Positions 13,939 through 48,969 of a stretch of DNA of 64,000 nucleotides are shown piece after piece. The position numbers were made by a program, and so were the translations under genes. Below the pieces are notes generated by a model that did not search any database, had not been told where the DNA came from, and was given only the letters and a program-made list of their open reading frames with translations. Within the stretch, counting starts at the first letter, position 1. Each line of letters opens with the position of its first letter. Source of the DNA: Aestuariivirga sp. (lineage in GTDB: Bacteria > Pseudomonadota > Alphaproteobacteria > Rhizobiales > Aestuariivirgaceae); contig NZ_JADCDA010000047.1 of the NCBI RefSeq assembly GCF_020252405.1, positions 1 to 64,000 on the forward strand, in the 5' to 3' direction.

Positions 13939-14262
13939 ATGCCGAAGCCGCCCAACCGCAAAGACGACAATCAGACAGGGGTGATCACCCGAACCGAGGC
14001 GAAGACCAAGAAACCTTCGCTCTACAAGGTGCTGCTGCTGAATGACGACTACACGCCGATGGAATTCGTCGTGCATGTGCTGGAGCGGTTCTTCGGCAAG
14101 GGACGCGAGGAGGCCACCCGCATCATGCTGCATGTCCACCAGAAGGGCGTCGGCGTCTGCGGGGTTTACACATTCGAGGTGGCGGAGACCAAGGTGACCC
14201 AGGTCATGGATTTCGCCCGCAACCACCAGCATCCCCTGCAGTGCACGATGGAAAAGGAATAG
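13939..14262 (+). CDS. clpS: ATP-dependent Clp protease adaptor ClpS
   Basis: ClpS delivers N-degron substrates (proteins with bulky hydrophobic N-termini) to ClpAP. The 107-residue protein has a disordered N-terminal tail and the folded core [20 protein letters not shown], with the conserved N-D-D-Y-T-P binding pocket and the M-L-H-V-H-Q-K-G segment. It starts at ATG 13939 (MPKPPNRK); an in-frame ATG 30 nt upstream exists, but a perfect TATAAT lies between them. clpA follows after 4 nt, the classical pair. Confidence 0.96.
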
Positions 14263-14266
14263 GCCA

Positions 14267-16687
14267 ATGCCGACATTCTCCCGCAGTCTCGAAAAGGCGC
14301 TGCACCGCGCCCTTGCACTGGCCAACGAACGCCGCCACGAATATGCGACGCTGGAACACTTGCTGCTCTCGCTCACCGAAGACAAGGACGCCGCCGCGGT
14401 CATGAAGGCCTGCAACGTCGATCTCGACGTGCTGCGCCGCAGCCTGACCAACTACATCGACAATGAGCTGGGCCAGATGATCGCGGCCGAGCGCGAGGAC
14501 TCCAAGCCCACCGCGGGCTTCCAGCGCGTCATCCAGCGCGCGGTGATCCATGTTCAGTCATCGGGCCGCGAGGAAGTGACCGGCGCCAACGTGCTCGTGG
14601 CGATCTTCGCGGAGCGCGAGAGCCATGCCGCCTTCTTCCTGCAGGAGCAGGACATGACGCGCTATGACGCGGTCAACTATATATCCCACGGCATTGCCAA
14701 GCGTTCGGGCCTGTCGGAGACGCGGCCGGTGCGCGGCGTCGACCAGGACCAGCAGAGCGCCAGCCACAATGACGGCGAGGAGGGCGGCTCCAAGAAGAAG
14801 GGCGAGGGTGACGCGCTCGACGCCTATTGCATCAATCTCAACAAGAAGGCGGGCGAAGGCAAGATCGACCCGCTGATCGGCCGGGAGGCCGAGGTCCGCC
14901 GCACCATCCAGATCCTGTGCCGCCGCCAGAAGAACAACCCGCTCTTCGTGGGTGATCCCGGCGTGGGAAAGACGGCGATCGCCGAGGGTCTCGCCTGCAA
15001 GATCATCAACGGCGACGTGCCGGAAGTGTTGCTCAACTGCACCGTTTACCAGCTCGACATGGGCGCGCTGCTGGCCGGCACGCGGTATCGCGGCGACTTC
15101 GAGGAACGCCTGAAGGCGGTGGTGAAGGAAATCGAATCCCGCCCGGGTGCGATCATGTTCATCGACGAGATCCATACGGTGATCGGCGCCGGCGCGACAT
15201 CGGGCGGCTCCATGGACGCCTCGAACCTGCTCAAGCCGGCGCTGGCGAATGGCGCGCTGCGCTGCATCGGGTCCACCACCTACAAGGAATACCGCCAGCA
15301 CTTCGAGAAGGACCGCGCCCTGGTGCGCCGCTTCCAGAAGATCGACGTGAACGAGCCCTCGATCCCGGATGCGATCGAAATCCTCAAGGGCCTCAAGCCC
15401 TATTACGAGGAGTTCCACAAGGTCCGTTACACCGATGACGCCATCGAAACGGCGGTGCAGCTCTCGGCCCGCTATATGGCCGACCGCAAGCTGCCGGACA
15501 AGGCGATCGACGTGATCGACGAAACGGGCGCCTCGCAGATGCTGGTCGCCGAGGACAAGCGGCTTACGGTGATCGGCGTGCCGGAGATCGAGGCCACCAT
15601 CGCCACCATGGCCCGTATTCCGGCCAAGACCGTGACGAAGGACGACGCCACGGTGCTGAAGAACCTCGACGCCGAGTTGAAGCGCATGGTGTTCGGCCAG
15701 GACAAGGCGATCGAGGCGCTGGCCGCCTCGATCAAGCTGGCGCGCGCCGGCCTGCGCGAGCCCGAAAAGCCCATCGGCTGCTATCTGTTCTCCGGCCCCA
15801 CGGGCGTGGGCAAGACGGAAGTCGCCAAGCGGCTCGCCGAAGTGATGGGCGTCAACATGCTGCGCTTCGACATGTCGGAATATATGGAGCGTCACTCCGT
15901 CTCGCGTCTCATCGGCGCTCCACCCGGCTATGTGGGGTTCGACCAGGGCGGCTTGCTGACAGACGGCATCGACCAGCATCCCTATTCGGTGCTGCTGCTT
16001 GACGAGATCGAGAAGGCGCATCCGGACCTGTACAACATCCTGCTGCAGGTGATGGACCACGGCAAGCTGACGGACCACAACGGCAAGTCCGTCGATTTCC
16101 GCAACGTGATCCTGATCATGACCACGAATGCCGGCGCCCAGGACATGGCGCGCGAGGCCATCGGCTTCGGCAACAGCGTCCGCCAGGGTGACGACATGGA
16201 GGCCATCCAGCGCCTGTTCACGCCGGAGTTCCGCAACCGCCTGGATGCGGTCATTCCCTTCGGCCACCTCCCGCCGGAGGTGGTGCGCAAAGTGGTGGAG
16301 AAGTTCGTGCTTCAGCTTGAGGCGCAGCTGGCGGAGCGTCAGGTCAACATCGAGCTCTCGGCGGAAGCGGCGGACTGGCTCGCGAAGAAGGGCTATGACC
16401 AGCAGATGGGCGCGCGGCCCCTGTCGCGGGTCATTCAGGAGCACGTGAAGAAGCCACTGGCTGAAGAGGTGCTGTTCGGCAAGTTGTCGAAAGGCGGCAC
16501 GGTGCGCATTCTGCTGAAGGGTGACCAGCTCCACTTCGACTATCTGGGACGCGACGAGGAAAAAGCGCTGCCCGGACGGCCGGAGCGAAAGGCCCTGCCG
16601 CGTGCCTCTACGGAAACTGACGATGAAGGTGACGACAAGGCCGGGAAGAAGGCGGCAAAGCGCAAGCCAAAGGCCAAATCCGAGTGA
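14267..16687 (+). CDS. clpA: ATP-dependent Clp protease ATP-binding subunit ClpA
   Basis: ClpA is the AAA+ unfoldase that feeds proteins into ClpP. The 806-residue protein has the N-terminal double Clp repeat (about 1-145), D1 with Walker [14 protein letters not shown] and Walker [16 protein letters not shown], and D2 with Walker [15 protein letters not shown] and Walker [12 protein letters not shown]. The sequence [11 protein letters not shown] is the D2 pore loop. The C-terminus carries a lysine-rich tail longer than that of E. coli ClpA. It is cotranscribed with clpS and ends before a strong terminator at 16720. Confidence 0.97.
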
Positions 16688-16719
16688 CATGCCACGGCGA
16701 AACGACGGCGAAATGAGGG

Positions 16720-16757
16720 AAAACCGGCGTACTGCACAATTGCAGTCGCCGGTTTTC
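16720..16757 (+). terminator. Intrinsic terminator after clpA
   Basis: A hairpin with outer arms AAAACCGGCG and CGCCGGTTTT and inner arms ACTGCA/TGCAGT around a CAAT loop, followed by CTTGTT, closes the clpSA unit. It is nearly symmetrical, so it may work in both directions, but only the plus-strand transcript approaches it here. Confidence 0.8.
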
Positions 16758-16816
16758 TTGTTATGGTGCGATTCAGAACAATAAGGGGTCCAGCGGGCCC
16801 CACGGGGAGGCAAGGC

Positions 16817-17614
16817 GTGGAAAACGCTGCAGCGGATGCCGATGGCCACCGCCCGGTTGCGGTGAAGGTGACGGACCTTCACAAGAAATTCGGCGAGCTT
16901 GAGGTGTTGAAGGGCGTGTCGCTGACGGCGCGCGAGGGCTCGGTCGTGTCGATGATCGGCGCTTCCGGTTCAGGAAAATCCACCTTCCTCCGCTGCATCA
17001 ACTTCCTCGAGATGCCGACCCAGGGCGAAATCGAAGTCACAGGCGAGAGGGTTTCTCTCGCGCGGCACAAGGATGGCGACTTGCACCCGTCCGACCGCAG
17101 GCAGCTCGAACGCATCCGCACGCGGCTGGGCATGGTGTTCCAGAGTTTCAATCTCTGGCAGCACATGACGGTGCTGCAGAACGTGATCGAGGCGCCGGTG
17201 CATGTGCTGGGCGTGCCGAAAGCCGAGGCGGTCGAGCGCGCCGGGAAGCTGCTCCACAAGGTCGGCCTGTTCGAGAAGCGCGATCAGTATCCCGCGTTTC
17301 TTTCGGGCGGCCAGCAGCAGCGCGCCGCCATCGCGCGCGCGCTCTGCATGGAGCCCAAGGTCATGCTCTTCGACGAGCCCACGTCGGCGCTCGATCCGGA
17401 ACTGGTGGGCGAAGTGCTGAAGGTCATCCGCGACCTCGCCGATGAAGGCCGCACCATGATCCTCGTGACCCACGAAATGAAATTTGCCCGCAGCGTCTCC
17501 AGCCACGTCATCTACCTCTACAAGGGTGTGATCGAGGAGGAGGGGCCGCCATCGCAGGTGTTCGGTTCGCCGCTGAGCGACCGGTGCCGCCAGTTCGTTT
17601 CCGGAATTCATTGA
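16817..17614 (+). CDS. ABC importer ATPase, polar amino acid (HisP) type
   Basis: This 265-residue ATPase powers a polar amino-acid importer. It has Walker A GASGSGKST, the Q-loop in MVFQSFNLWQHMT, the signature LSGGQQQRAAIARALC and Walker B VMLFDEPTSALDPELV, followed by the H-loop VTHEMKFARSVS. The start is GTG 16817 with GGGGAGG 6 nt upstream; the longer frame from 16763 lacks a ribosome site and overlaps the clpA terminator. It leads an operon of ATPase, binding protein, two permeases and an M20 hydrolase. The typical family substrates are His, Lys, Arg or opines. Confidence 0.94.
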   Translation: MENAAADADGHRPVAVKVTDLHKKFGELEVLKGVSLTAREGSVVSMIGASGSGKSTFLRCINFLEMPTQGEIEVTGERVSLARHKDGDLHPSDRRQLERIRTRLGMVFQSFNLWQHMTVLQNVIEAPVHVLGVPKAEAVERAGKLLHKVGLFEKRDQYPAFLSGGQQQRAAIARALCMEPKVMLFDEPTSALDPELVGEVLKVIRDLADEGRTMILVTHEMKFARSVSSHVIYLYKGVIEEEGPPSQVFGSPLSDRCRQFVSGIH

Positions 17615-17659
17615 AATGTCCGGAGAGGAAAATAAATCCATAAAACAGGGAGGATGAAA

Positions 17660-18448
17660 ATGAACTTCAGGAGACTACTGATCGCAGCCGCGGCCGCGTT
17701 GACGATCGGGGCAACGTCCGCCAGAGCGGACCTCGTTTTCGCAACCGACACCTCGGCCTACCCGCCCTTCACCTCAAAGAACGCCGCCGGCGAATGGGTG
17801 GGCTGGGAATATGAGTTCATGAACGCCCTCTGCGCCGAAATGAACGAGAAATGCACGATGACCGCGATCGCGTGGGATGGCATCATTCCCGCGCTGCTCG
17901 AAAAGAAGATGGACGGCATCCTCGGCTCGATGTCGATCACCAACAAGCGCAAGGAGGTGATCGATTTCTCCGACATGTACTATAATTCCGCCGCGGTCAT
18001 CATCGGCGCCAGGAACGGCGACATGGACTTCTCGCCCGAGCATCTGTCCGGCAAGACGATCGGCGTTCAGGGCGCGACGATCCACCAGAATTACGTCGAC
18101 AAGTACTATGTGCCGAAGGGCGCGGTTTCCAAGGCTTATCAGAAGCAGGATGAGGCGAACGCCGATCTTGCCGCGGGCCGTGTCGACTATCTGATGGCGG
18201 ATGGCGTGGCTTTGCGCGATTATTTGATGTCGGACGAGGGCAAGGCCTGCTGCGAGCTGAAGGGCGCCGTGCCGGACGACAAGGAAGTGTTGGGCTACGG
18301 CGTCGGTGTCGGCCTCAGAAAGGAAGACACGGCCCTGCGCGACAAGATCAACGCGGCGATCAAGTCCCTCGCAGCCAGGGGTTACTTTGAGGAGCTCACG
18401 AAGAAATATGGTCTTGATGGCCTCATGAAGCTTCCTCCCAGGGGTTGA
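17660..18448 (+). CDS. Periplasmic polar amino-acid binding protein (LAO/HisJ type)
   Basis: This 262-residue lipid-free binding protein has a signal peptide (MNFRRLLIAAAAALTIGATS, cut before ADLVFATDTS) and the family marks YPPFTSKNAAGEWVGWEYEF, GIIPALLEKKMDGILGSM and the ligand-binding R/D region. ATG 17660 is preferred over ATG 17654 because GGGAGG (17648-17653) then has the usual spacing. It would capture a basic or polar amino acid and hand it to the two downstream permeases. A strong hairpin follows its stop. Confidence 0.93.
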   Translation: MNFRRLLIAAAAALTIGATSARADLVFATDTSAYPPFTSKNAAGEWVGWEYEFMNALCAEMNEKCTMTAIAWDGIIPALLEKKMDGILGSMSITNKRKEVIDFSDMYYNSAAVIIGARNGDMDFSPEHLSGKTIGVQGATIHQNYVDKYYVPKGAVSKAYQKQDEANADLAAGRVDYLMADGVALRDYLMSDEGKACCELKGAVPDDKEVLGYGVGVGLRKEDTALRDKINAAIKSLAARGYFEELTKKYGLDGLMKLPPRG

Positions 18449-18455
18449 TGACCCG

Positions 18456-18483
18456 CAACGGCCGCCCTCCGTGGCGGCCGTTG
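18456..18483 (+). other. Strong hairpin between binding-protein and permease genes
   Basis: Arms CAACGGCCGCC (18456-18466) and GGCGGCCGTTG (18473-18483) form a perfect 11-bp stem with a 6-nt loop. There is no U-run. It lies 7 nt after the binding-protein stop and before the permease start, the place where stems in binding-protein-dependent operons protect the upstream message and lower permease expression. The hairpin role is inference. Confidence 0.75.
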
Positions 18484-18500
18484 CCGATCCGGTGGGCGCA

Positions 18501-19208
18501 ATGTTCCCTGAAATCCTGAGCTTTGGCGAGAAGGGCTTTGGAGATGAACTTCTCCGCGGCACGCAATACACGCTTCTGATCTCAGCCTTCGCCTATCTCC
18601 TGGGCGTTGCCCTGGGGCTGCTCGGCGCGTCGGCCAAGCTCTACGGCGGCCCCATGTCGCGGGGGATCGGCGGGATATACACCTCCATCGTCCGGTCGGT
18701 GCCGGAGCTGGTGCTTATTCTTATCCTTTACTTCGCCGGCACGCGCGGGCTCAACACGCTGCTCGGGTTTATTGGCGTGGGCCCGGTTGAGGTCAACGCG
18801 ACGCTGGCCGCCATCGTGGTGCTCGGGGTGGTGCAGGGCGCTTACCACACGGAGGTTTTCCGCGCCGCCATCCTCGCCGTTCCTCCCGGGCAGATCGAGG
18901 CCGGCCGCGCCTTTGGCATGGGCCGGCTGCTTATCTTCCGGCGCATCATCGGACCGGCAATGCTGCCGAACGCAATTCCCGGCCTTTCGAACCTCTGGCT
19001 GATCGTGATCAAGGATACGGCGCTCGTCGCGGTGGTCGGGAATGTCGAGCTCCTGTCGATCACCGCATCCGCCGCGGCGTTCACCAAGAAATATATGCTG
19101 TTCTATCTTGCCACGGCGCTGATCTATCTGACCATCACACTGGTCTCGAGCTACCTCATCGGGCTTGTGGAGCGCCGCTATCGGCGCGGCCAGGCGGGAT
19201 TGGCCTGA
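18501..19208 (+). CDS. ABC importer permease, polar amino acid type (HisQ-like)
   Basis: This 235-residue membrane protein carries the HisQ/HisM permease domain with about five hydrophobic segments and the conserved EAA loop IEAGRAFGMGRLLIFRRIIGPAMLPNAIPG. ATG 18501 (MFPEILSFGEKGFGDELLRG) is chosen; the earlier GTG at 18471 lies inside a strong hairpin. The block GTQYTLLISAFAYLLGVALG is the typical first helix. It pairs with the next gene to form the transport channel. Confidence 0.92.
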   Translation: MFPEILSFGEKGFGDELLRGTQYTLLISAFAYLLGVALGLLGASAKLYGGPMSRGIGGIYTSIVRSVPELVLILILYFAGTRGLNTLLGFIGVGPVEVNATLAAIVVLGVVQGAYHTEVFRAAILAVPPGQIEAGRAFGMGRLLIFRRIIGPAMLPNAIPGLSNLWLIVIKDTALVAVVGNVELLSITASAAAFTKKYMLFYLATALIYLTITLVSSYLIGLVERRYRRGQAGLA

Positions 19209-19217
19209 GGTGCGCGG

Positions 19218-19907
19218 ATGAACTGGAGCTGGTTTCCGGAGTATTTTCCCCTCCTGCTTCAGGGCATCTGGCTGACGATCCAGCTTCTCGTGCTCTCGAT
19301 GGTCTTTGGCCTGATCATCGCGGTGCCGGTTGGCCTGGTGCAGGTCACGGGCCCCCGCTGGCTTGGGGCCATCGCGCGAGGTTACTGCACGCTGATGCGC
19401 GGCACGCCGCTGCTGGTGCAGCTCTGGTTGCTCTACTTCGGCCTCGGGTCGGTGTTTGCCTCATATCCCGAAATCCGGCAGAGCGTGTTCTGGCCTGTCC
19501 TGCGGGAGGGTTATTTCTACGCGGTGCTGGCCTTCTCCCTGAATGAAGGGGGCTATGCCGGCGAGATCATGCGCGGTGCGTTCCTGTCCGTTCCAAAGGG
19601 CGAACTGGAATCGGCGAGGGCCTTTGGCATGTCGCCCTGGCGGGTGTTGCGGAGGATCTGGCTGCCGCGCGCCTTCCGGAACGTACTTCCAACCCTTGCC
19701 GGCGAAACGGTGTTGATGCTCAAGGCTACTCCGCTTGCGGCGACCGTCACCGTTCTCGACATCTTCGGCGTCATTCTGCGCGTGCGGCAGAACACTTACC
19801 TCACCTACGAGCCTTTGCTGCTGGCAGCGGCGCTTTACATGGTCATCACGCTTGTCATCACACAGATGTTTGCCCGCATCGAGAGCAGGGTTCCCAGCCG
19901 CCGATGA
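19218..19907 (+). CDS. ABC importer permease, polar amino acid type (HisM-like)
   Basis: This 229-residue second permease opens with MNWSWFPEYFPLLLQGIWLT and has the conserved Y-C-T-L-M-R-G-T-P-L-L-V-Q segment and the EAA loop LESARAFGMSPWRVLRRIWL. It lies 9 nt after the first permease gene and overlaps the following amidohydrolase gene by 4 nt (ATGA), so the hydrolase belongs to the same translation unit. Confidence 0.93.
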   Translation: MNWSWFPEYFPLLLQGIWLTIQLLVLSMVFGLIIAVPVGLVQVTGPRWLGAIARGYCTLMRGTPLLVQLWLLYFGLGSVFASYPEIRQSVFWPVLREGYFYAVLAFSLNEGGYAGEIMRGAFLSVPKGELESARAFGMSPWRVLRRIWLPRAFRNVLPTLAGETVLMLKATPLAATVTVLDIFGVILRVRQNTYLTYEPLLLAAALYMVITLVITQMFARIESRVPSRR

Positions 19908-21070
19908 TTGAGGACGTTCTCATCAGGCATCTGCCCGGTCTCACGGCCATCCGGCATGACCTTCATGCCCACCCCGAAATGCTGTTCCAGGAGGAACGCA
20001 CCGCGAGGATCGTGGCCGATGAGTGCCGCCGGCTCGGGTTCGACGTCACCACGGGGATCGCCAGGACGGGCGTGGTGGCATCGCTGACCAACGGCGCCTC
20101 AGGGCGCGTCATCGGCATCCGCGCCGACATGGACGCGCTGCCGATCCAGGAGCAGACCAATCTGCCATACGCCTCGAAATATCCGGGCAAGATGCATGCC
20201 TGCGGCCATGACGGCCACACCACCATGCTGCTGGGCCTTGCGCGCTATCTGTCGGAGCACCGTCATTTCGACGGCACCGTGCGTCTGATCTTCCAGCCTT
20301 CGGAGGAGGACGAGGGCGGAGCCTTCCGGATGATCGAGGACGGTCTCTTCACCCGCTTTCCCTGTGACCGTATCTTCGCACTCCACAACCTGCCGGGCGA
20401 GCCGGAGGGGCAGATCATGGTGCGGCCCGGCCCCATCACCGCCTGCTGCGATGTCTTCACCATCGTGGTGCGGGGCGTAGGCGGCCACGGCGCTCTTCCG
20501 CACAAGTCGGTGGACCCCGTGGTCGCGGCCTCCAGCATCGTTCTGGCGCTGCAGACGGTGGTCTCCCGCAATCTCGATCCGCATGATCCCGCGGTCATCA
20601 CCGTTGGCGCAATCAATGGCGGGTCGATGGCGACGGTCATTCCGGAAGAGGTGCGGCTGCTCGTCGGCGTGCGGACGGTGACGAGGCCGGTGCGCGATCT
20701 CATCCTGACACGCATCGGGGATGTCGCCGCGGCCCAGGCGAAGTCCTTCGGCTGCACGGCCGATGTCCAGATCGGGCTGGACAGCTGGAGCTACCCCGCG
20801 GGCTTCAACACCGCCGATGAGGCCGCACTGGTGCGCGCGGTGGCCCTCGACATGGGGCAGGATCCGGCACACATCGACATGCGCGGCCCCTTCATGTTCT
20901 CGGAGGATTTCTCCGCCATGCAGGAGGTGGCGCCGTCCTGCTATTTCGGCCTGGGGGCAGGGCCGGGGCCGATGCTGCATGACCCCGGCTATGATTTCAA
21001 TGACGCGCTGCTGGTGAAGGGCTCCGCCTTCTGGGCGAGGCTTGTCGAGAAGGCGCTGCCTCAGGCATAA
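19904..21070 (+). CDS. M20-family amidohydrolase (hippurate hydrolase / N-acyl amino acid deacylase type)
   Basis: This 388-residue zinc peptidase-like enzyme has the M20D marks HDLHAHPEMLFQEERTA, GIRADMDALPIQEQT, MHACGHDGHTTMLLG and FQPSEEDEGGA, together with a late metal-ligand region FMFSEDFSAM. The family removes acyl groups from N-acyl amino acids. It is the last gene of the amino-acid importer operon, joined by an ATGA overlap. This suggests the importer takes up an acylated or conjugated amino acid which is cleaved inside the cell. Its last 10 nt overlap the convergent SerC-SerA-like gene. Confidence 0.9.
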   Translation: MIEDVLIRHLPGLTAIRHDLHAHPEMLFQEERTARIVADECRRLGFDVTTGIARTGVVASLTNGASGRVIGIRADMDALPIQEQTNLPYASKYPGKMHACGHDGHTTMLLGLARYLSEHRHFDGTVRLIFQPSEEDEGGAFRMIEDGLFTRFPCDRIFALHNLPGEPEGQIMVRPGPITACCDVFTIVVRGVGGHGALPHKSVDPVVAASSIVLALQTVVSRNLDPHDPAVITVGAINGGSMATVIPEEVRLLVGVRTVTRPVRDLILTRIGDVAAAQAKSFGCTADVQIGLDSWSYPAGFNTADEAALVRAVALDMGQDPAHIDMRGPFMFSEDFSAMQEVAPSCYFGLGAGPGPMLHDPGYDFNDALLVKGSAFWARLVEKALPQA

Positions 21071-24027
21071 GGTCCTTCGAGGCCAAGCCTGCGCATCAGC
21101 GTTGCATAGCGGTTGAAGCTCTTCACCAGGGCCGCGCCATGGCGTGAAATCAGCGCCTGGCGGGTTTCCTCCGTCGAAGCTGCCGCGAGCGCCGCCCAGA
21201 TCGCCGCCATTGTTTCTGCCTCGGCCCGGGCTGCGGCGGCATCTCCCGCCTCCACCGCCTGGGCAATGGACTGGCCATTGCACTTGCCGACCCCCGCCAC
21301 GGTTCTGGAACCGGCGAGCGTATAGCCGTCCGGCAGATCGCCCTTGAGGTTCACCACGTGCCTGAAGCGGATGGCGCCGATGATCTGGTCGACCGCCTGC
21401 CTGGCGCCTTCGACGCGCGACACATGCTCGGTGTCGGCCGCCGCATGCGGCAGCAGTTCGACACGGCCGGGATATTTCCGCGCCAGCGGCAGGTAGGGCG
21501 CCATCGGCCCGGTCCTGGCGCCGGTTTCCTCATCGACAAAGAGGTCGGCATCGATCGACGCATGGCGCACCTTGCCGGACGCCATCGCGGCATCGAGGGC
21601 GGTCGCATCCACGCACTCGCCGCGGTCATAGTTGAGGACGATGGCGCCATCGTTGAGCCGGGCCAGCACGGCCGCGCTCACCACACCGGCATTGGCGAAC
21701 TTGCCGGTCGCGGCGTTCAGCGGGCCGAGGCCGGTGTGCACCGACAGGACATCGGCGCCTTGGGCGGCTTCTTCCGGCGTGGCGGCGAAAACGAAACCTT
21801 CGGACTCGATCCACTCCCTCTGGCGCGGGCGGGCGTGCACGGCCACGGCCATTCCGAAGGCCTGGGCGAGCTTCGCCATCTCGCGGCCGATGTTGCCGTA
21901 ACCGACGATGCCGATGCGCTTGCCCTCGATCTTCTCGGTGGGGAACCTGGCGAGGTCGCGCCCGGTGTCGAACTGGCCTGCCGCGGTGAGCCTGTGCATC
22001 TCATCGACCGGCAGATCGGGCAGAACCTTCAGCAGGGCCTTGAAGCCCATCTGCGCGGTCGCACGGCTGTTGAAGGAGGGCGTGTTCATCAGCGGCGCTG
22101 AGCCACCCTCGCCGTTGCCGCCGCCCCAGGAGGCGGAGCCCATGTTGCCGGTGCCGGCGCCGATGCGCACGCCGCCCTCGTCGAACCGGGCCTCCTTCGG
22201 CAGGAAGGTGGCCGCGGCGATCACCGCGTCATACTGGCCCTTGGCGGTCAGCGGGCGGATCTCTTCCGGCTTCGACAGCTGCGGCTGGTGGAAGAAGTGC
22301 ATGCCCGGGTCAAGCGTCATCCCCTCCGTATACGGAGCATCGTGGAAGGTGCAGCCCCGTGCCACGATATGGGCCTTCACCGCCGAATGGTCGGGCCTGC
22401 CGTCCGCCCCGAACTTGAGGCCCACGTGATCGCAGATCAGAACCTTGTAGGCACGCCCCGGATCGTCCCTGCGGCCGAGGCCCGCGTCCTGGGCCGGGGC
22501 GGGGAAGGTGACGCCGTGCTCCGCCAGCTCCTCCTCCATCACCACGATGCGGGCGCGGTGATAGGTATATTTGATGTTGTCCATCAGGGCGGGGATGTCC
22601 TCCACCGGGCGGATGCCGCCGATCCAGGCGCGGTAGTCGCCGGGCGTGCCCGGAAAGGCGTTGAGGTAGCGGGCCACATCGAGGCCCTGTTCGTGAACGC
22701 CGTTCGGATGGGTGATGCCGTCATAGGCGAGCAGCTGTTTCGAGCGTGCGATGATGCGGGCGTGGATGGCCGGATCGGTGACCTCGCCGTCCGCCACCTT
22801 GATGAGGGTGACGGCGGCGCCCCGGTGTTCCGCGCTGGTCACGCCCGGCTGGAAAAGGTTCGAATTGCTCATCCACTCATTGAGGGCGGTGCGGTTCAGT
22901 TCCGAGCGGCGGTTCATCTCCCTCACCGGCCCGATCATTTTCTCCACGCGCAACAGGCCGAAGGTCGTCTCGGCGAAAGCGAGCGTGGAAAAGGTGTTGA
23001 TGACGCCGCCCACCATCCTGTTCTCCTGCGCGTCGTAGAACGGCCCAAGCTGCACCGTGCGCCCGCCCGAGAGCGGCAGTTTGGGGTCGGCGGGTGGAGC
23101 GAGCTTCAGCTGACGCGGAATGGCCCATGATGGCTTTTTCTGGTTCTCTTCAACGCGTGCGAGAGCGTGGGGCGTGAACGAGACGAGGAAGTAACCGGAG
23201 ACGCCGCCGATCGCTTTCTGGAACGGCATGAACAGGCAGCACTTCGACATGACCTGCGCCACCAGCTCCTCGCCCCAGGGCATGGCGCCCAGCATGGAGG
23301 TGGCGTCGAGCACCGCATGGTGTTCGGCCGGGTTGCGGTCGATCCAGTCGAGCAGGTTCTCGATGTCGGCGCGGGAATAGGTCGTGGCGCCCGTCGTCTC
23401 ATGGCCGACGCCGAAGAACACCTTGACGCCCATGCGCTCCAGCACGCCGGAGGAGGGAATCGCGCCCTCCGCCCTGGCGAAGTGGATGCGCGCCTCCCCG
23501 CCGTTGCGGGCAAAACGCATCATCTCGACGATCTGTGCCCCCCAGCTCTGGCGGAAGAAGCCTGACGCCCTGGCAAGATCGGACTCAGGGGCAGGCGTGT
23601 CGACATAGACATGCTGGGCCGGGTCATTCACCGTCAGGACGTGAAGCGCGCACACGGTGAAGCCCGAATGGCCTCCGCCCAGGCCCACCGCCAGCCGGTT
23701 CGTTTTGGGGAACTCGAAGTAGCGGTGAATCTCCCGCATCATTTCGAGCAGAACCTTGTCCGCCGGGTATCCGCGGTGCATCGACCGGCCGATTTCGGCC
23801 GCGGTGAAGGGGCCGATGTCGCGGCCTTTGTCATCAAGCTTGCGATAGGTCTGTTCCAGCCAGTGCTCGAAGGCGAAGCGCAGCATGCGGCTGTCAGCCC
23901 CGTCATGCGCCATGTCGGTGATTGGGCCGACCCCGAAGAAGGGGTTCTGCGTGCGGGGCGGGGGGCCGCCGGCCGTCGCCTTCAGTGAACTGTCCCGCGT
24001 CGTCCTCAGTTTATCCACGACCGACAT
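21061..24027 (-). CDS. Fusion of a SerC-like aminotransferase and a SerA-like dehydrogenase
   Basis: This 988-residue protein joins two enzymes of phosphoserine synthesis. Residues about 25-480 match class V aminotransferases of the phosphoserine (SerC) kind: SMHRGYPADKVLLEMM, GLGGGHSGF, and the PLP lysine (near 271) in FMPFQKAIGGVSGY. Residues about 510-890 match D-3-phosphoglycerate dehydrogenase-like 2-hydroxyacid dehydrogenases: Rossmann motif IGIVGYGNIGREMAKLAQAF (near 704), the catalytic-arginine block NYDRGECVD (near 801) and LLPHAAADTEHVSR with the catalytic His (near 860). A C-terminal tail of about 90 residues is unrecognised. The start ATG has GAGGGA upstream. Whether both halves act on phosphoserine precursors is inference. 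Confidence 0.85.
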   Translation of the reverse strand: MSVVDKLRTTRDSSLKATAGGPPPRTQNPFFGVGPITDMAHDGADSRMLRFAFEHWLEQTYRKLDDKGRDIGPFTAAEIGRSMHRGYPADKVLLEMMREIHRYFEFPKTNRLAVGLGGGHSGFTVCALHVLTVNDPAQHVYVDTPAPESDLARASGFFRQSWGAQIVEMMRFARNGGEARIHFARAEGAIPSSGVLERMGVKVFFGVGHETTGATTYSRADIENLLDWIDRNPAEHHAVLDATSMLGAMPWGEELVAQVMSKCCLFMPFQKAIGGVSGYFLVSFTPHALARVEENQKKPSWAIPRQLKLAPPADPKLPLSGGRTVQLGPFYDAQENRMVGGVINTFSTLAFAETTFGLLRVEKMIGPVREMNRRSELNRTALNEWMSNSNLFQPGVTSAEHRGAAVTLIKVADGEVTDPAIHARIIARSKQLLAYDGITHPNGVHEQGLDVARYLNAFPGTPGDYRAWIGGIRPVEDIPALMDNIKYTYHRARIVVMEEELAEHGVTFPAPAQDAGLGRRDDPGRAYKVLICDHVGLKFGADGRPDHSAVKAHIVARGCTFHDAPYTEGMTLDPGMHFFHQPQLSKPEEIRPLTAKGQYDAVIAAATFLPKEARFDEGGVRIGAGTGNMGSASWGGGNGEGGSAPLMNTPSFNSRATAQMGFKALLKVLPDLPVDEMHRLTAAGQFDTGRDLARFPTEKIEGKRIGIVGYGNIGREMAKLAQAFGMAVAVHARPRQREWIESEGFVFAATPEEAAQGADVLSVHTGLGPLNAATGKFANAGVVSAAVLARLNDGAIVLNYDRGECVDATALDAAMASGKVRHASIDADLFVDEETGARTGPMAPYLPLARKYPGRVELLPHAAADTEHVSRVEGARQAVDQIIGAIRFRHVVNLKGDLPDGYTLAGSRTVAGVGKCNGQSIAQAVEAGDAAAARAEAETMAAIWAALAAASTEETRQALISRHGAALVKSFNRYATLMRRLGLEGPYA

Positions 24028-24507: not shown

Positions 24508-25836
24508 ATGGACCGCCGGACGTTCATGATTGCAAGCGCCACGATGGCTCTTCCAAATATTGCCCGCGCTCAATCGGCGCCGACCAGAATCGTATTCTGG
24601 CATTCAATGACTGCTGTGCTCGGGGAGGAAGTCAACCGTCTGTGCGACACTTTCAACAGCAGCCAGTCTGCAATTCAAGTTCAGCCGCTCTTCCGCGGTG
24701 GCTATGCGGAATCGATGACAGCCGCGATCGCCGCCTGGCGCGCCGGGCAGGCGCCGCATCTGGTTCAGGTGTTTGAAGTCGGTACGGGGTCGATGCTGGG
24801 GGCCGGACCGGCGGTGAGGCAGATCTGGGAATTGTCGCAGGAAACGGGGATCGACATCGATCCGGCGGTTTTCATCCCGGCCGTCCGGGGTTATTACAGC
24901 CTCACCGACGGGCGGCTTGCATCCATGCCCTTCAATTCCTCGACAGCCGTGATGTTCTACAACAAAGACAGCTTTGAGAAGGCTGGCCTCGATCCCGAAA
25001 CTCCACCCGCGACGTGGAAACATGTCATCGCCGCTGCCCAGGCCATCAGGGCGTCATCGGCCGCGGCCATTCCCATGACGACGTCGTGGCCGGTCTGGAT
25101 CCAGCTTGAACAATTCGGCGCGATTCACGATCTGCCTTACGCGACACAGGCAAACGGTTTCGATGGCCTTGATGCCGAACTTCTCATCAACACGGAGCAC
25201 TATGTTGCGCAGGTTCAGCGTCTGCTCGACATGGCCAAGGATGGCACCTTCAGGTATGGCGGCCGTGACAATTCCGCTGATGCAATGTTTCCGTCAGGTC
25301 AGGCGGCCATGTCGTTCAATTCCTCCAGCGTGCGCAGCGACATTGCCCGCACCGCGAATTTCCGCTGGGGTACGGCCATGCTGCCTTATGATCCGGCGGT
25401 CATCGACCAGCCGATCAACTCCATCATCGGCGGTGCAAGCCTTTGGCCGATGACAACGCCCAATAGGACGCCAGAGGAGTACAAGGCCGTCGCCTCCTTC
25501 CTGCTGTTCCTGTCGCAGCCTGAGAACGTGGCCTCGTGGAGCAAGAATACTGGCTATGTTCCGGTCACCGTCGCTGGATACGAGCTGATGAGGCAGCAGG
25601 GCTTCTTCAAGGAGAATCCCGGGGCGGATGTTCCGATCGAGCAACTCACCCGTGGGACCATGACGAAGAATTCGATGGGCTTCCGGCTTGGCCGAATGGC
25701 GGAGCTTCGCAATATCATCTCCGAGGAACTGGAGCGGGCGCTCCAGGGCGCTCAGTCCGCGCAGGCCGCCATGGATGTATCGGTCCGGCGCGGCAATCGC
25801 GTTCTTCGGGACTTTCAGAGAACGCAGAGGTCTTGA
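24508..25836 (+). CDS. ugpB: sn-glycerol-3-phosphate-binding periplasmic protein
   Basis: This 442-residue binding protein delivers sn-glycerol-3-phosphate (or glycerophosphodiesters) to the Ugp importer. It has an N-terminal twin-arginine-like signal (MDRRTFMIASATMALPNIAR) and UgpB marks IVFWHSMTAVLGEEVNRLCD, APHLVQVFEVGTGSM and GGASLWPM. Length fits UgpB (about 430-440). The ribosome site AGGAG (24494-24498) can pair with CTCCT directly before the ATG, so translation start may be partly masked. It leads ugpAEC, a HAD phosphatase and a phosphodiesterase gene and is preceded by a Pho box. Confidence 0.9.
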   Translation: MDRRTFMIASATMALPNIARAQSAPTRIVFWHSMTAVLGEEVNRLCDTFNSSQSAIQVQPLFRGGYAESMTAAIAAWRAGQAPHLVQVFEVGTGSMLGAGPAVRQIWELSQETGIDIDPAVFIPAVRGYYSLTDGRLASMPFNSSTAVMFYNKDSFEKAGLDPETPPATWKHVIAAAQAIRASSAAAIPMTTSWPVWIQLEQFGAIHDLPYATQANGFDGLDAELLINTEHYVAQVQRLLDMAKDGTFRYGGRDNSADAMFPSGQAAMSFNSSSVRSDIARTANFRWGTAMLPYDPAVIDQPINSIIGGASLWPMTTPNRTPEEYKAVASFLLFLSQPENVASWSKNTGYVPVTVAGYELMRQQGFFKENPGADVPIEQLTRGTMTKNSMGFRLGRMAELRNIISEELERALQGAQSAQAAMDVSVRRGNRVLRDFQRTQRS

Positions 25837-25863
25837 TCAACAACAAGAATTCGGAACCTGAAG

Positions 25864-26739
25864 ATGGAACGCCGGACTATCTTTGACGGGTGGCTTCTGC
25901 CCGCGATGCTTGTGCTGCCGCAGCTCGTGCTGACATTTTTCTTTTTTCTGTGGCCGGCGGCGCGAGCCATCTGGTCCAGCCTTGAGCGTCAGGACGCCTT
26001 CGGGATCAACTCTGAGTTTGTAGGGTTTGAGAACTTCGTGGATCTGTTTGAAGATCCTCTCTATCTGGAGGCGGTTGTCCGGACCCTGATTTTCGTGTTT
26101 TTCGTGACGGTCATCGCGATGGCGGTCGCGCTGGTCCTCGCCATCTTCGCAGACCGGGAGATCCGCGGTCGGGACATCTACAGGACTCTGCTCATCTGGC
26201 CTTACGCCGTCGCCCCGGCGATCGCCGGCGTGTTGTGGGTGTTGTTGATGGATCCGAACGTCGGTCTTGTGGGCGTCGGGCTGAACAATATGGGTATCAA
26301 TTGGGACTACAGGCTCAACGGTTTTCAGGCCATGCTTCTCGTCATCCTTGCGTCGGCGTGGAAGCAGGTAAGCTATAACTTCATTTTCTTTCTTGCGGCC
26401 CTGCAGTCCATTCCGAAATCGGTGACCGAGGCCGCCCGCATCGACGGGGCGTCGGAGTTGCACCGGTTCCGCACGATCACTCTGCCTTTGATTGCGCCCA
26501 CGACGTTCTTCCTCATCGTCGTCAATGTGGTCTACGCCGCTTTCGACACCTTCGCGACGATTGCCGCCACGACCCAGGGCGGTCCCGGCCGCTCGACGGA
26601 GACGCTGGTTTTCAAGGTTTTCCGCGATGGCATCGTCAATGTCAACATTGGCTCATCCTCCGCGCAGTCTGTCGTGTTGATGGTTGGGGTCATTCTGATC
26701 ACCGCCTTGCAATTCCGGTTCATGGAGAAGAAATCGTGA
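25864..26739 (+). CDS. ugpA: sn-glycerol-3-phosphate importer permease UgpA
   Basis: This 291-residue membrane permease has six helices, starting at LLPAMLVLPQLVLTFFFFLW, and the EAA loop SVTEAARIDGASELHRFRTI. It opens with MERRTIFDGW, close to other UgpA proteins. It follows ugpB after 27 nt and overlaps ugpE by 4 nt (GTGA). With UgpE it forms the channel. The assignment to Ugp rather than another sugar importer rests on the whole operon, including the terminal glycerophosphodiesterase. Confidence 0.9.
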   Translation: MERRTIFDGWLLPAMLVLPQLVLTFFFFLWPAARAIWSSLERQDAFGINSEFVGFENFVDLFEDPLYLEAVVRTLIFVFFVTVIAMAVALVLAIFADREIRGRDIYRTLLIWPYAVAPAIAGVLWVLLMDPNVGLVGVGLNNMGINWDYRLNGFQAMLLVILASAWKQVSYNFIFFLAALQSIPKSVTEAARIDGASELHRFRTITLPLIAPTTFFLIVVNVVYAAFDTFATIAATTQGGPGRSTETLVFKVFRDGIVNVNIGSSSAQSVVLMVGVILITALQFRFMEKKS

Positions 26740-27572
26740 TCAGAACGGGCAAGGTTGACTGGGTCGCTCATTCCATTCTCCTTCTGGGAGTGGCGCTGTT
26801 CGTTTTGCCGGTCTGGCTGGTGTTCGCCGGTTCCACTCAGGACAGCGCCGACATCGCGCGTGGCGATATGTCCATCGTTCCCAATCTGTCACAACTGGGA
26901 ATTTATAGCTCCGTTCTCACCGAGGCGGCGCCCGGAGCGCAGCCGGTGTGGCGCATGATGATGGTGTCCTTCGGCATGGCGCTTGTCATCGCCTTCGGCA
27001 AGATATTCATTTCGATTATGTCCGCTTATGCGGTCACGTTTTTCCGGTTTCCATTCAAGATGCTGTGCTTCTGGACGATTTTCATCACGCTGATGCTTCC
27101 GGTGGAGGTGCGCATCGTCCCGACTTTCAAGGTTATGGCGGGGTTCAACCTGATCAACACGTTTACGGGACTCACTGTGCCCCTTATGGCCTCGGCGACG
27201 GCGACCCTGCTGTTCCGTCAGACGTTTCTCGCAATCCCAGATGAACTCGTTGAGGCCGCGCGCACCGACGGTGCCGGCCCGTTGCGCTTCCTCAAGGATA
27301 TTCTGGTGCCGGTCTCCGCGGCCAATCTGGCGGCAATGTTCGTCATTCTCTTCGTGTACGGCTGGAACCAATATATGTGGCCCTTGCTGGTGGCAACCGA
27401 CCCCAGGCTCGACACGATCGTGATCGGCATCGTGAAAATGATCGGTCACGAGGCGCTAACCGAATGGAACCGCGTGATGGCGACGGCAGTGCTTGCGATG
27501 CTGCCGCCCGTCGTGGTCGTGGTTCTCATGCAACGCTGGTTTGTCAAAGGACTTACGGAAGGTGACAAGTAA
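26736..27572 (+). CDS. ugpE: sn-glycerol-3-phosphate importer permease UgpE
   Basis: This 278-residue second permease starts at GTG 26736, overlapping ugpA by 4 nt. It has six hydrophobic helices and the EAA loop ELVEAARTDGAGPLRFLKDI. The segment GWNQYMWPLLVATDPRLDTI is typical of UgpE and related MalG-type permeases. Its stop (TAA) shares one base with the ugpC start codon, so all three genes are translationally coupled. Confidence 0.9.
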   Translation: MIRTGKVDWVAHSILLLGVALFVLPVWLVFAGSTQDSADIARGDMSIVPNLSQLGIYSSVLTEAAPGAQPVWRMMMVSFGMALVIAFGKIFISIMSAYAVTFFRFPFKMLCFWTIFITLMLPVEVRIVPTFKVMAGFNLINTFTGLTVPLMASATATLLFRQTFLAIPDELVEAARTDGAGPLRFLKDILVPVSAANLAAMFVILFVYGWNQYMWPLLVATDPRLDTIVIGIVKMIGHEALTEWNRVMATAVLAMLPPVVVVVLMQRWFVKGLTEGDK

Positions 27573-28639
27573 TGGCCACCCTGCAGCTTGAAAATCTGAA
27601 GAAGAGCTTTGGAACGACGCACGTCCTGAAAGGTGTCGACCTTTCGCTGGCGTCGGGCGAGATGCTCGTTATCGTGGGCGCATCCGGCTGCGGCAAGTCG
27701 ACCTTGCTGCGCCTGGTCGCCGGTCTCGAGACCCCGACCTCCGGCCAGATCATGGTTGACGGCCGCGACGTGGCGCAGCTCGATCCCGCCCAGCGCGACA
27801 TCGCCATGGTGTTTCAGAATTATGCGCTTTATCCGCACATGACGGTTTTCGACAACATGGCCTATGGTCTCCGCATTCGGGGCTTGAGCCGGGAGGACAT
27901 CGGGAAGCGGGTTCAGGATGCTGCCAACACGCTCGGACTCGGCGCGTTGCTGAAGCGCACGCCGCGCCAGTTGTCGGGCGGTCAGCGCCAGCGCGTGGCC
28001 ATGGGACGGGCGATCGTTCGCGAACCGAAGGTCTTTCTGTTCGACGAACCGCTCTCCAACCTCGACGCTGCTCTCCGTGTACAGATGCGCGCGGAGATCC
28101 GGCGCCTGCAGCGGCGGATGCGGGTGACAAGCCTCTATGTCACTCACGACCAGGTCGAGGCCATGACTCTGGGCGACCGGCTGCTCGTGATGCATCTCGG
28201 CAAGCCCGTTCAGCTCGCGACGCCGATGGAAGTCTTCGAAAAGCCCGCCAACACTTATGTCGCGGGCTTCATCGGCGCTCCGTCGATGAACCTCATGCCG
28301 GCTAAGCTCGGTCATGGCGGCGCCTCCGCGGTTCTTGAAGACGGACACGTCATCACTTTCGCCGACGGCCGCCGCCCGGGACAGGACGGTCGGAAGCTCA
28401 CCGTGGGCATCCGTCCGGAACATCTGCGTCCGGAACCAGGTGGCATCGAGATTTTTATCGACCTCGTCGAACCGCTCGGCTCGGAAACGGTGGTCATCGG
28501 CCGCATGAAGAATGGCGAGCTCGTTTCGGTGAAGATTCCCAGCGCGGGGTCCATCCCGGAGACCATGAGCGTGGTGATCGCGCCTGAGCATCTTCATGTG
28601 TTTGATGGCGAAACCGGCCTGCGGGTCGAGGCGGTGTGA
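27572..28639 (+). CDS. ugpC: sn-glycerol-3-phosphate importer ATPase UgpC
   Basis: This 355-residue MalK/UgpC-type ATPase has Walker A GASGCGKSTLLRLVAG, Q-loop MVFQNYALYPHMTVFDNMAY, signature LSGGQRQRVAMGRAIV, Walker B VFLFDEPLSNLDAALR and H-loop VTHDQVEAM, followed by a TOBE domain (from about residue 235) with VGIRPEHLRPE. It energises UgpAE. Such ATPases can sometimes serve other importers of the family, which matters because the polyamine-type importer at 8357-11483 has lost its own. Confidence 0.94.
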   Translation: MATLQLENLKKSFGTTHVLKGVDLSLASGEMLVIVGASGCGKSTLLRLVAGLETPTSGQIMVDGRDVAQLDPAQRDIAMVFQNYALYPHMTVFDNMAYGLRIRGLSREDIGKRVQDAANTLGLGALLKRTPRQLSGGQRQRVAMGRAIVREPKVFLFDEPLSNLDAALRVQMRAEIRRLQRRMRVTSLYVTHDQVEAMTLGDRLLVMHLGKPVQLATPMEVFEKPANTYVAGFIGAPSMNLMPAKLGHGGASAVLEDGHVITFADGRRPGQDGRKLTVGIRPEHLRPEPGGIEIFIDLVEPLGSETVVIGRMKNGELVSVKIPSAGSIPETMSVVIAPEHLHVFDGETGLRVEAV

Positions 28640-28645
28640 CCCGCC

Positions 28646-29497
28646 ATGGAGCATTTCCCCCGCTTCGCACCGCTGGCGGCACGCTATGACGGTTTTATCG
28701 TCGATCTCTGGGGTGTGATCCATGATGGTGTAGCGCCCTATCCGGGCGCAAGGGACTTGCTTCAGAAATTGCAGGAGATGGAGCGCCGTGTCGTGCTGCT
28801 GTCCAATGCGCCCCGCCGGGTGGCCTCTGTGCGGGACGACCTTCTCGCCATGGGCGTGTCAGACGACCTGTACGATGGTCTGATGACCAGCGGCGAGGCG
28901 GTTTTCGAAGCACTTTCGCACCGCAGCGATCCCTGGGTGGCGGAGCTGGGAAGGAAGGTCTATTTCCTCGGCCCGGAACGCGACTGGGGGATCCTGAACG
29001 GGCTGGAACTTCACCAGGTCGAGCGGCCTGCCGCGGCGGACTTTGTGATTATCACCGCTCCCGACGATTTGCAGGGGCCAAGCACGATCAACGATCACCT
29101 GCCTGCCCTGGAGCAATGTCTCGCCGCCGGGCTGCCAATGATTTGCGCCAATCCTGACTTCGAAATCGTGCGTGACGGTCAGCGCATCATCTGTGCGGGC
29201 GCGCTCGCCAGACATTACGAAACACTTGGCGGCGAGGTCAGATGGTACGGGAAACCCGACGCTGCTATCTATCCCTCCGTCCTGGAAATCCTGGAGGTTT
29301 CTGCATCGCGTGTATTGGCGGTGGGCGATGGCTTGCGCACCGACATTGCGGGCGCACGGGCCGCCAATCTGGCGAGTTGCTGGGTCCTGGGCGGCATTCA
29401 TGCGGAGGAACTTGAAGAACGCGAGACCAGTGCGGAAGCACTTGCCAATGCCGTAGGTCACTATCCGTCCACGTCTGTGCCGGAGTTCAAGTGGTGA
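28646..29497 (+). CDS. HAD-superfamily class IIA hydrolase (NagD-like)
   Basis: This 283-residue phosphatase-like protein begins MEHFPRFAPLAARYDGFIVD, with the HAD motif I region IVDLWGVIHDGVAPYPGA, motif II LLSNAPRR and the late motif LAVGDGLRTDIAGARAANL. Class IIA members hydrolyse small phosphomonoesters such as glycerol phosphate, p-nitrophenyl phosphate or nucleotides. It follows ugpC after 6 nt and precedes a glycerophosphodiesterase, so it may release phosphate from glycerol-3-phosphate brought in by Ugp. That role is inference. Confidence 0.85.
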   Translation: MEHFPRFAPLAARYDGFIVDLWGVIHDGVAPYPGARDLLQKLQEMERRVVLLSNAPRRVASVRDDLLAMGVSDDLYDGLMTSGEAVFEALSHRSDPWVAELGRKVYFLGPERDWGILNGLELHQVERPAAADFVIITAPDDLQGPSTINDHLPALEQCLAAGLPMICANPDFEIVRDGQRIICAGALARHYETLGGEVRWYGKPDAAIYPSVLEILEVSASRVLAVGDGLRTDIAGARAANLASCWVLGGIHAEELEERETSAEALANAVGHYPSTSVPEFKW

Positions 29498-29529
29498 AGC
29501 CGCTCCGATGAACACGCGAGGAACCGCAA

Positions 29530-30441
29530 ATGACGTCAGCCTTTGAAATACAGGGCCACCGCGGCGCCCGCGGCCTGTTTCCTGAGAATACGCTCGAAGG
29601 CTTCCGCGCGACTTTGGCGCTTGGCGTAACCAGCCTGGAGCTTGATGTCGGCGTGACGGCCGATGACGTCGTTGTTGTCGTCCACGATCCGAGGCTCAAT
29701 GCGGATTTGACCCGCGGTCCGGATGGCGCCTGGCTGCCTGAAACAGGCCCGGCGATACGTTCGCTGACCTATGCCGAACTGATCCGGTACGATGTGGGCC
29801 GGGCGCGCGGGGGTAGTGTGGTTGCCTTGCATAATCCTGATCAGGCGGGCGTGGACAATGTCCGCATTCCGATGCTCGACGACGTCTTCAAGCTCGCGGC
29901 CGGAACTGGCGTGATTATCGACGTCGAAATCAAGACCGATCCGGCCTATCCGGAATTAACGGTCTCGCCCGAGGTGATGGCGGATGCGGTTCTGGCCGTT
30001 GCCCGCCGTAACAATGCGCTCGACACTCTGGCGGTGCGTTCGTTTGACTGGCGGAGTCTCGCGCATCTCCGTTCGGTATGGCCCGGCGCCACGCTCGGCT
30101 GGCTCACAAGCGCCGGGACGGCCACGCCAGCCTGGCGCGGGACCCACACGCCCGCGTTGTCGAACCTGGTCGAATCCGTGCATGCTGCAACGGGCGGAAC
30201 ACCCGGTTGCTGGGCCCCCGACATGTCCGAGTTGACCCCGGACATCGTCGTTCGGGCCAAGGCTGCGGGGCTTAGGGTGGTGCCCTGGACGGTGAATGAT
30301 CCGGCGGACATTGATCGTCTTGCCGGGTGGGGTGTTGATGGCGTCACAACAGACCGGCCTGATCTGGCGCGGGAGGTCTTGGCGAAGCGCGGCTGGAGAC
30401 TTCCGCCGATTGTTCATGCATCCGGCGGTGCGACCGGCTGA
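29530..30441 (+). CDS. ugpQ: Glycerophosphodiester phosphodiesterase
   Basis: This 303-residue cytoplasmic GDPD enzyme hydrolyses glycerophosphodiesters to sn-glycerol-3-phosphate and an alcohol. It has the signature QGHRGARGLFPENTLEGF with the catalytic His, then ELDVGVTADDVVVVVHDP with metal-binding Glu/Asp and the second His, and VIIDVEIKTD. Near the C-terminus, VPWTVNDPADIDRLAGWGVD is the usual W-x-V-N-x-x and G-V-D-G-x-x-T-D region. There is no signal peptide. It is the last gene of the ugp unit and completes a phosphate-scavenging pathway. Confidence 0.92.
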   Translation: MTSAFEIQGHRGARGLFPENTLEGFRATLALGVTSLELDVGVTADDVVVVVHDPRLNADLTRGPDGAWLPETGPAIRSLTYAELIRYDVGRARGGSVVALHNPDQAGVDNVRIPMLDDVFKLAAGTGVIIDVEIKTDPAYPELTVSPEVMADAVLAVARRNNALDTLAVRSFDWRSLAHLRSVWPGATLGWLTSAGTATPAWRGTHTPALSNLVESVHAATGGTPGCWAPDMSELTPDIVVRAKAAGLRVVPWTVNDPADIDRLAGWGVDGVTTDRPDLAREVLAKRGWRLPPIVHASGGATG

Positions 30442-30659: not shown

Positions 30660-30767
30660 CTACTTCGTCTTGTCCCGTTTCAGCTTCCACAATTCCCAGA
30701 AGGCCCAACCGAGCACGACGCCGACAACGAGTATTCCTTCCGCGAGTGCGAGGCTGCTGCCACTCAT
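30660..30767 (-). CDS. Small membrane protein translationally coupled to crtB
   Basis: A 35-residue reading frame starts at ATG 30767, which overlaps the crtB stop by 4 nt (ATGA). It encodes MSGSSLALAEGILVVGVV followed by LGWAFWELWKLKRDKTK: a short outside part, one transmembrane helix of about 18 residues and a positively charged cytoplasmic tail. It is not a known photosynthesis gene to me. The coupling, the clean hydrophobic profile and the charged end make it a credible gene. It might anchor or organise the carotenoid enzymes or belong to a pigment-protein complex, which is speculation. Confidence 0.6.
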   Translation of the reverse strand: MSGSSLALAEGILVVGVVLGWAFWELWKLKRDKTK

Positions 30768-43670: not shown

Positions 43671-43671
43671 G

Positions 43672-48891: not shown

Positions 48892-48969
48892 ACCTTGCCC
48901 GGGCCTGACCCGGGCATCCTTCGCGGAGGCCACCGAAAAGGATCTCCAGGTCAAGCCCGTCGACGGGGA
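48892..48969. repeat. Dispersed repeat ahead of the macroglobulin gene
   Basis: The stretch holds CACCTTGCCCGGG, then CGAAAAGGATC and GGTCAAGCCCG. The same order and spacing recur at 58854-58929. Its left edge coincides with the GTG start of the macroglobulin gene. The common bacterial type of element, with a degenerate dyad (CCCGGG.../...CCCG), may be a transcription end for the upstream fixS gene. Confidence 0.65.

Follow-up and report, generated by a model that had tools for sequence, protein, structure and literature searches.

A gene on the reverse strand of a 64,000-nucleotide stretch of Aestuariivirga sp. DNA (contig NZ_JADCDA010000047.1; the window) encodes a single protein in which a pyridoxal phosphate (PLP)-dependent aminotransferase is followed by a D-2-hydroxyacid dehydrogenase. 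The fusion represents an unstudied enzyme family and is not the usual serine-making machinery. There is about an even chance that it converts L-serine via hydroxypyruvate to D-glycerate in the serine cycle or related one-carbon (C1) assimilation. The PLP half would pass the serine amino group to glyoxylate or pyruvate to yield hydroxypyruvate and glycine or alanine, and the dehydrogenase half would reduce hydroxypyruvate to D-glycerate, probably with NADPH. A glycerate 2-kinase would then feed the D-glycerate carbon into central metabolism. The setting would be one-carbon and glycine assimilation via serine, either in the serine cycle or in choline, glycine betaine and sarcosine catabolism, and in organisms without a serine cycle the fusion would support plain serine use. 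An aminotransferase-first order, described as reversed in an initial annotation made from the sequence alone, is natural if the flow runs from amino acid to oxoacid to hydroxyacid; it would track the path from serine to glycerate, and channelling of hydroxypyruvate is possible.

The open reading frame starts with ATG, contains no internal stops and encodes 988 residues. A SerC-fold aminotransferase (residues ~1-510) comes first, the dehydrogenase (~524-905) second and a helical C-terminal part last. Orthologues align over the entire length with 59-88% identity; the fusion is therefore not an assembly or frameshift artefact. The full-length AlphaFold2 (AF2) model has a pLDDT of 82 and a pTM of 0.66, with a relative placement of the two halves that calls for caution, and a Foldseek search with this model matched 2-hydroxyacid dehydrogenases (phosphoglycerate dehydrogenase (PGDH), CtBP, D-lactate dehydrogenase and glyoxylate/hydroxypyruvate reductase). 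The intact frame, the whole-length orthologues and the AF2 and Pfam results bear out the initial annotation of one protein composed of a SerC-like aminotransferase and a SerA-like dehydrogenase. The key residues it named were all correct within one position (K271, H84-R85-G86, GGGHSG 117-122, GYGNIG 709-714, Arg802 and His861), and the key residues of both halves are invariant across 48-60 orthologues. Residues 906-988 have no match in Pfam; this C-terminal part accompanies the dehydrogenase half and is missing from some relatives.

The aminotransferase half has no match in Pfam, and its highest score among the NCBIfam SerC models is a weak 48 bits to phosphoserine transaminase (cut-off 477; residues 227-493). 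An AF2 model of this half alone has a pLDDT of 88.7 and a pTM of 0.88. Foldseek placed Mycobacterium tuberculosis SerC on top (3vom by E-value; 2fyf with a TM-score of 0.80 on the target), followed by alanine-glyoxylate and serine-pyruvate aminotransferases at about 0.65-0.70. The class V fold and the PLP lysine identify the half as a relative of SerC. The phosphate of the SerC substrate is held by two His/Arg pairs, His41-Arg42 and His327-Arg328 (PMC12011608). The first pair is invariant in the fusions as His84-Arg85. At the second, an alignment of low identity shows V/I/L-N, with V/I/L opposite the Arg of the YRD motif in the SerC of the same genome; this suggests that the aminotransferase half has probably lost the second phosphate-binding Arg. 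In Arabidopsis AGT1, the counterpart of the His-Arg pair is proposed to admit L-serine (PMC6797613). An insertion at ~295-340 carries the invariant residues R305, Q306 and K308, and R159, H209, R402, K430 and R453 are also invariant. Comparison of the aminotransferase profile with single SerC sequences gave nothing informative.

The dehydrogenase half matches Pfam 2-Hacid_dh_C above the cut-off (91.5 bits, residues 675-827). It has the GxGxxG Rossmann domain, the substrate-binding domain and the catalytic Arg and His of a D-2-hydroxyacid dehydrogenase. The substrate-binding domain, whose absence would have counted against the initial annotation, is present in the alignment, though diverged. 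In SerA, the invariant Arg of an Arg-Ser motif in the β3-α3 loop binds the substrate phosphate, and a conserved Asp in the βB-αD loop confers NAD specificity (PMC6303947). All 60 fusion orthologues have A/V/T-A-A and no Arg at the first site, and all 60 have Ala732-Arg733 with no Asp at positions 731-733. The Ala-Arg pair predicts NADP(H) as the cofactor. The score against the SerA model TIGR01327 is 72 bits, below the cut-off of 454. The Glu of the catalytic triad (E269 in Escherichia coli SerA) is not conserved, the aligned position being K/V/T in the fusion family, and the half carries an unusual GTGNMxxxxWGGGxG loop.

The rest of the genome speaks against a role of the fusion in serine synthesis. 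serA and serC in canonical form adjoin on contig C64 (684 bits against a cut-off of 454 and 621 bits against 448, respectively); the earlier statement that stand-alone copies are not in the window was not contradicted. The initial annotation assigned the first two steps of the phosphorylated serine pathway to the fusion. That headline, with its channelling of phosphohydroxypyruvate, does not hold against the canonical pair found by the genome search that the annotation itself had proposed and a dehydrogenase without the SerA-defining residues, whereas the architecture and the conserved residues it described stand. Its reservation that another hydroxyacid/oxoacid/amino acid triad may be the substrate set also stands. 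The genome also carries an sga-mtkA-mtkB-mcl cluster with no hydroxypyruvate reductase within it (contig C72) and a glycerate kinase (contig C104). Aestuariivirga serine-cycle clusters have a gene of 115-118 aa without an NCBIfam match between mtkB and mcl (L172:2855-3202 (-), L173, L178, L190 and L191).

Genes of serine, glycerate and C1 metabolism recur beside the fusion in separate branches of the family. Upstream of the fusion in Sinorhizobium/Ensifer lie a serine-glyoxylate aminotransferase (SGAT)/BhcA-type aminotransferase, a malyl-CoA-lyase-like protein, malate thiokinase A and B (732 bits in Sinorhizobium, cut-off 604) and a betaine BCCT transporter. A deltaproteobacterial metagenome-assembled genome (MAG) has mtkB-mtkA-mcl divergent from the fusion. 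A glycerate 2-kinase (DUF4147+MOFRL) is directly 3′ of the fusion in Marinomonas, and a glycerate 2-kinase lies 63 bp downstream in a distant tree branch (Rhizobiales R129_N). Choline and betaine genes appear as an 844-aa DAO+FAO_M+GCV_T protein of the dimethylglycine/sarcosine-dehydrogenase type upstream in Paracoccus aminovorans, a choline dehydrogenase upstream in a Roseovarius MAG and a betaine BCCT transporter nearby in a Hyphomicrobiales MAG. An ORF of ~470 aa (c45) is directly 3′ of the fusion in Nitrosomonas, SAR324 and deltaproteobacterial MAGs (L155:4412-5830, L147:11030-12460, L137:3989-5413 and L164:6269-7579); the members examined have no match in Pfam, NCBIfam or PDB, and by eye they are perhaps kinase-like.

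As a background for co-occurrence with the serine cycle, 398 genomes sampled evenly across the phylum were used, and MtkA is above cut-off in 22 of them (5.5%). MtkA is present in 5/8 genomes with the fusion or dehydrogenase family compared to 17/390 others (p = 1.6e-5). It was found in 17/39 further fusion genomes, far over the background, and in 10 of an additional 14, some of which had been chosen for the known presence of these genes. Glycerate kinase is present in 33/36 fusion genomes versus 54/64 others (p = 0.37), which says little because the gene is so common among relatives.

Several observations weigh against conversion of serine to glycerate. All of the co-occurrence p-values ignore shared ancestry, and the association between the fusion and malate thiokinase is not significant within Aestuariivirga (p = 0.22), where the thiokinase is missing in 17/28 fusion-bearing species. 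Across the fusion genomes as a whole it is absent from about half, including all Rhizobium and Marinomonas tested. Most fusion neighbours are unrelated housekeeping genes, and those in the window give no clue to function. An SGAT-type gene co-occurs with the fusion both in its own genome and in Sinorhizobium, and would make the aminotransferase half redundant in both. Five further D-2-hydroxyacid dehydrogenases are encoded in the genome, any of which may be the hydroxypyruvate reductase, and the existence of dehydrogenase-only relatives means that the dehydrogenase can act without this aminotransferase. Dehydrogenase activity remains putative because the catalytic Glu is missing, although the superfamily has known exceptions without this residue.

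The main rival is that the fusion acts on a different triad of amino acid, 2-oxoacid and D-2-hydroxyacid, for example one with a 3-substituted, acidic or larger side chain, with only indirect links to C1 metabolism. This is possible, though on balance doubtful. The insertion and the additional invariant residues of the aminotransferase half could line another pocket, and the dehydrogenase loop, the genomes without malate thiokinase and the many loci without a serine-related neighbour all suit such a substrate. Serine and glycerate are favoured instead by the glycerate 2-kinase that adjoins the fusion in two distant branches and by genes of the serine cycle or of choline/betaine use in several more. 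The phosphorylated pathway from 3-phosphoglycerate via phosphohydroxypyruvate to phosphoserine on one chain, or its reverse, would account for the SerC-like fold, the retained His-Arg pair and the weak PGDH and SerC profile matches, and fusions of PGDH and phosphoserine aminotransferase (PSAT) are known in oomycetes and brown algae. It is nonetheless unlikely, given the canonical genes in the same genome, the lack of both phosphate-binding Arg and NAD Asp from 60/60 dehydrogenase halves, the probable absence of the second SerC phosphate Arg, the sporadic and sometimes plasmid-borne gene and a domain order opposite to that of the eukaryotic fusion. The gene content of the genome and the residues that are missing led to the rejection of serine biosynthesis as the role of the fusion.

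PdxB is a D-2-hydroxyacid dehydrogenase, and SerC catalyses the step that follows it. A PdxB-SerC-like fusion for vitamin B6, from 4-phosphoerythronate via 2-oxo-3-hydroxy-4-phosphobutanoate to 4-phosphohydroxythreonine, would agree with a weak PdxB match to the fusion (62 bits). PdxB has the same Arg-Ser phosphate motif and NAD Asp as SerA (PMC6303947); both are missing from the fusion, which led us to reject this role, and an essential cofactor route would not be this patchy. It is hardly credible. The loss of the triad Glu and the relatives that have shed the aminotransferase could also point to a sensor or scaffold in which one or both halves are catalytically weak. The invariance of the PLP lysine, Arg802, His861 and the dinucleotide loop in 48-60 orthologues makes this very improbable. 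We retain the route from serine to glycerate as the best explanation. More tentatively, somewhat short of even confidence, the fusion would be an undescribed bifunctional family with two serine-cycle steps on one chain, in pathway order, using NADPH and an aminotransferase not of the SGAT type; in organisms without the serine cycle it would form a short route from choline- or betaine-derived serine to glycolysis. A literature search of incomplete coverage found no account of a bacterial aminotransferase-dehydrogenase fusion.

The family is sporadic. Of the 304 relatives reported by a contig scan, 80 were retained. In the phylum sample the family occurs in 8/398 genomes, with the full fusion in four (G000, G081, G168 and G347) and the dehydrogenase part only in the others. 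Full-length orthologues are found in Aestuariivirga (including A. litoralis contigs), Labrys, Kiloniella, Rhodobacterales, Marinomonas, some MAGs and Rhizobium and Sinorhizobium plasmids, and their public annotation is only "NAD(P)-dependent oxidoreductase". In a tree of the dehydrogenase part, the Aestuariivirga dehydrogenase-only genes, which lack the C-terminal part, form one clade within the fusions beside a fusion that also lacks it. Dehydrogenase-only and fused genes in Aestuariivirga share one genomic position, adjoining a 318-aa gene and a lepA-like gene. The nested clade and shared locus indicate that in this genus the C-terminal part was lost first and the aminotransferase half next. 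In Rhizobiaceae the dehydrogenase-only genes still have the C-terminal part, and their branches lie unresolved close to the base, so that either the fusion or the separate dehydrogenase may be the older form. The place of the dehydrogenase half among 2-hydroxyacid dehydrogenases is not resolved by this tree, whose outgroup branches are 4-10 changes per site. Variant copies include an aminotransferase-only gene (L066:2909-4741 (-)) that lies immediately downstream of a full-length fusion and encodes 610 aa with 57% identity to the aminotransferase half but another C-terminus, an Ensifer adhaerens copy that stops after about 582 residues (L043:13986-15734) and a MAG copy broken into two frames (L165:1039-4032).

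Table 1. Features of the fusion gene, in window coordinates
Feature	Position	Strand	Basis
Fused aminotransferase/D-2-hydroxyacid dehydrogenase	21061..24027	-	Complete CDS with stop, 988 aa
Aminotransferase half, residues 1-510, class V fold, closest to SerC	22498..24027	-	AF2 and Foldseek; NCBIfam; alignment to own-genome SerC
His84-Arg85, counterpart of SerC His41-Arg42; invariant	23773..23778	-	Alignment; PMC6797613, PMC12011608
Lys271, PLP Schiff-base lysine (QKAIGG); invariant	23215..23217	-	Alignments
Dehydrogenase half, residues 524-905, substrate-binding and nucleotide-binding domains	21313..22458	-	Pfam; Foldseek; alignment
AAAT, residues 604-607, β3-α3 loop at the SerA phosphate-binding Arg-Ser site	22207..22218	-	Alignment; PMC6303947
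GYGNIG, residues 709-714, dinucleotide-binding loop	21886..21903	-	Pfam; alignment
Ala732-Arg733, invariant, replaces NAD-selecting Asp	21829..21834	-	Alignment; rule from PMC6303947
Arg802, substrate-orienting catalytic Arg; invariant	21622..21624	-	Alignment
His861, proton-exchanging catalytic His; invariant	21445..21447	-	Alignment
C-terminal part, residues 906-988, mostly helical	21064..21312	-	Model; Pfam search; tree of relatives

The window block at 13939-21070 (+) contains clpS-clpA-like genes, a polar amino-acid ABC transporter and an M20 amidohydrolase, and is kept in 11 Aestuariivirga loci. It is convergent with the fusion, and the end genes overlap by 10 bases. A functional link to the amidohydrolase and transporter was considered and rejected: they are tied to clpA/clpS and are missing beside other fusions, and the association is probably shared synteny only. 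Upstream of the fusion, a ugpB-like transporter operon leads into genes for a HAD-IIA phosphatase and a glycerophosphodiester phosphodiesterase (GDPD)-like protein (24508-30441 (+)). A phosphorus or glycerophosphate link was discarded because these genes do not recur at other loci; phn genes lie at some distance from a Shinella dehydrogenase-only relative. Elsewhere in the window, a squalene/phytoene synthase-family gene adjoins a flavin amine oxidoreductase-family gene (30764-33296 (-)), and a bacterial α2-macroglobulin (1753 aa) adjoins a PbpC-type penicillin-binding protein with transglycosylase and transpeptidase domains (41577-48933 (-)).

If the assignment is correct, a role in the use of one-carbon units and betaine carbon would fall to hundreds of genes in rhizobia, Rhodobacterales, Kiloniella, Labrys and Marinomonas whose only annotation is "NAD(P)-dependent oxidoreductase", and a natural two-step fusion would be of interest for engineered serine-cycle methylotrophy. 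The case also cautions against labelling such genes serA or serC. SerC (2fyf, 3vom; TIGR01365) is the best structural match to the aminotransferase half and shares its PLP lysine, His-Arg pair and motif order, whereas the fusion has an extra N-terminal part and the insertion near 295-340 and has apparently lost the second phosphate Arg. The dehydrogenase half has the superfamily, the triad Arg and His and the NAD(P)-binding loop in common with SerA; it differs in the absence of the phosphate Arg, the NAD Asp and a conserved triad Glu, and no ACT domain was found. Sga and HprA catalyse the two reactions proposed for the fusion and often keep the same genome company (mtkA, mtkB, mcl and glycerate kinase), but they are separate proteins, the fused aminotransferase is SerC-like rather than Sga-like, and HprA has the full Arg-Glu-His triad. 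The serine-cycle clusters with an hprA-like gene (L183 and L184) come from fusion-free genomes. The oomycete and brown-algal PGDH-PSAT fusion, assigned to mitochondrial serine synthesis, is likewise a single chain, with a D-2-hydroxyacid dehydrogenase (PGDH) first and a SerC-type aminotransferase (PSAT) second (PMC5715807, PMC2705460). The bacterial protein has the aminotransferase first and has lost phosphate-site residues of PGDH and probably of PSAT; if it does convert serine to glycerate, the domain orders of these two fusions of the same superfamilies would differ because flow runs in opposite directions.

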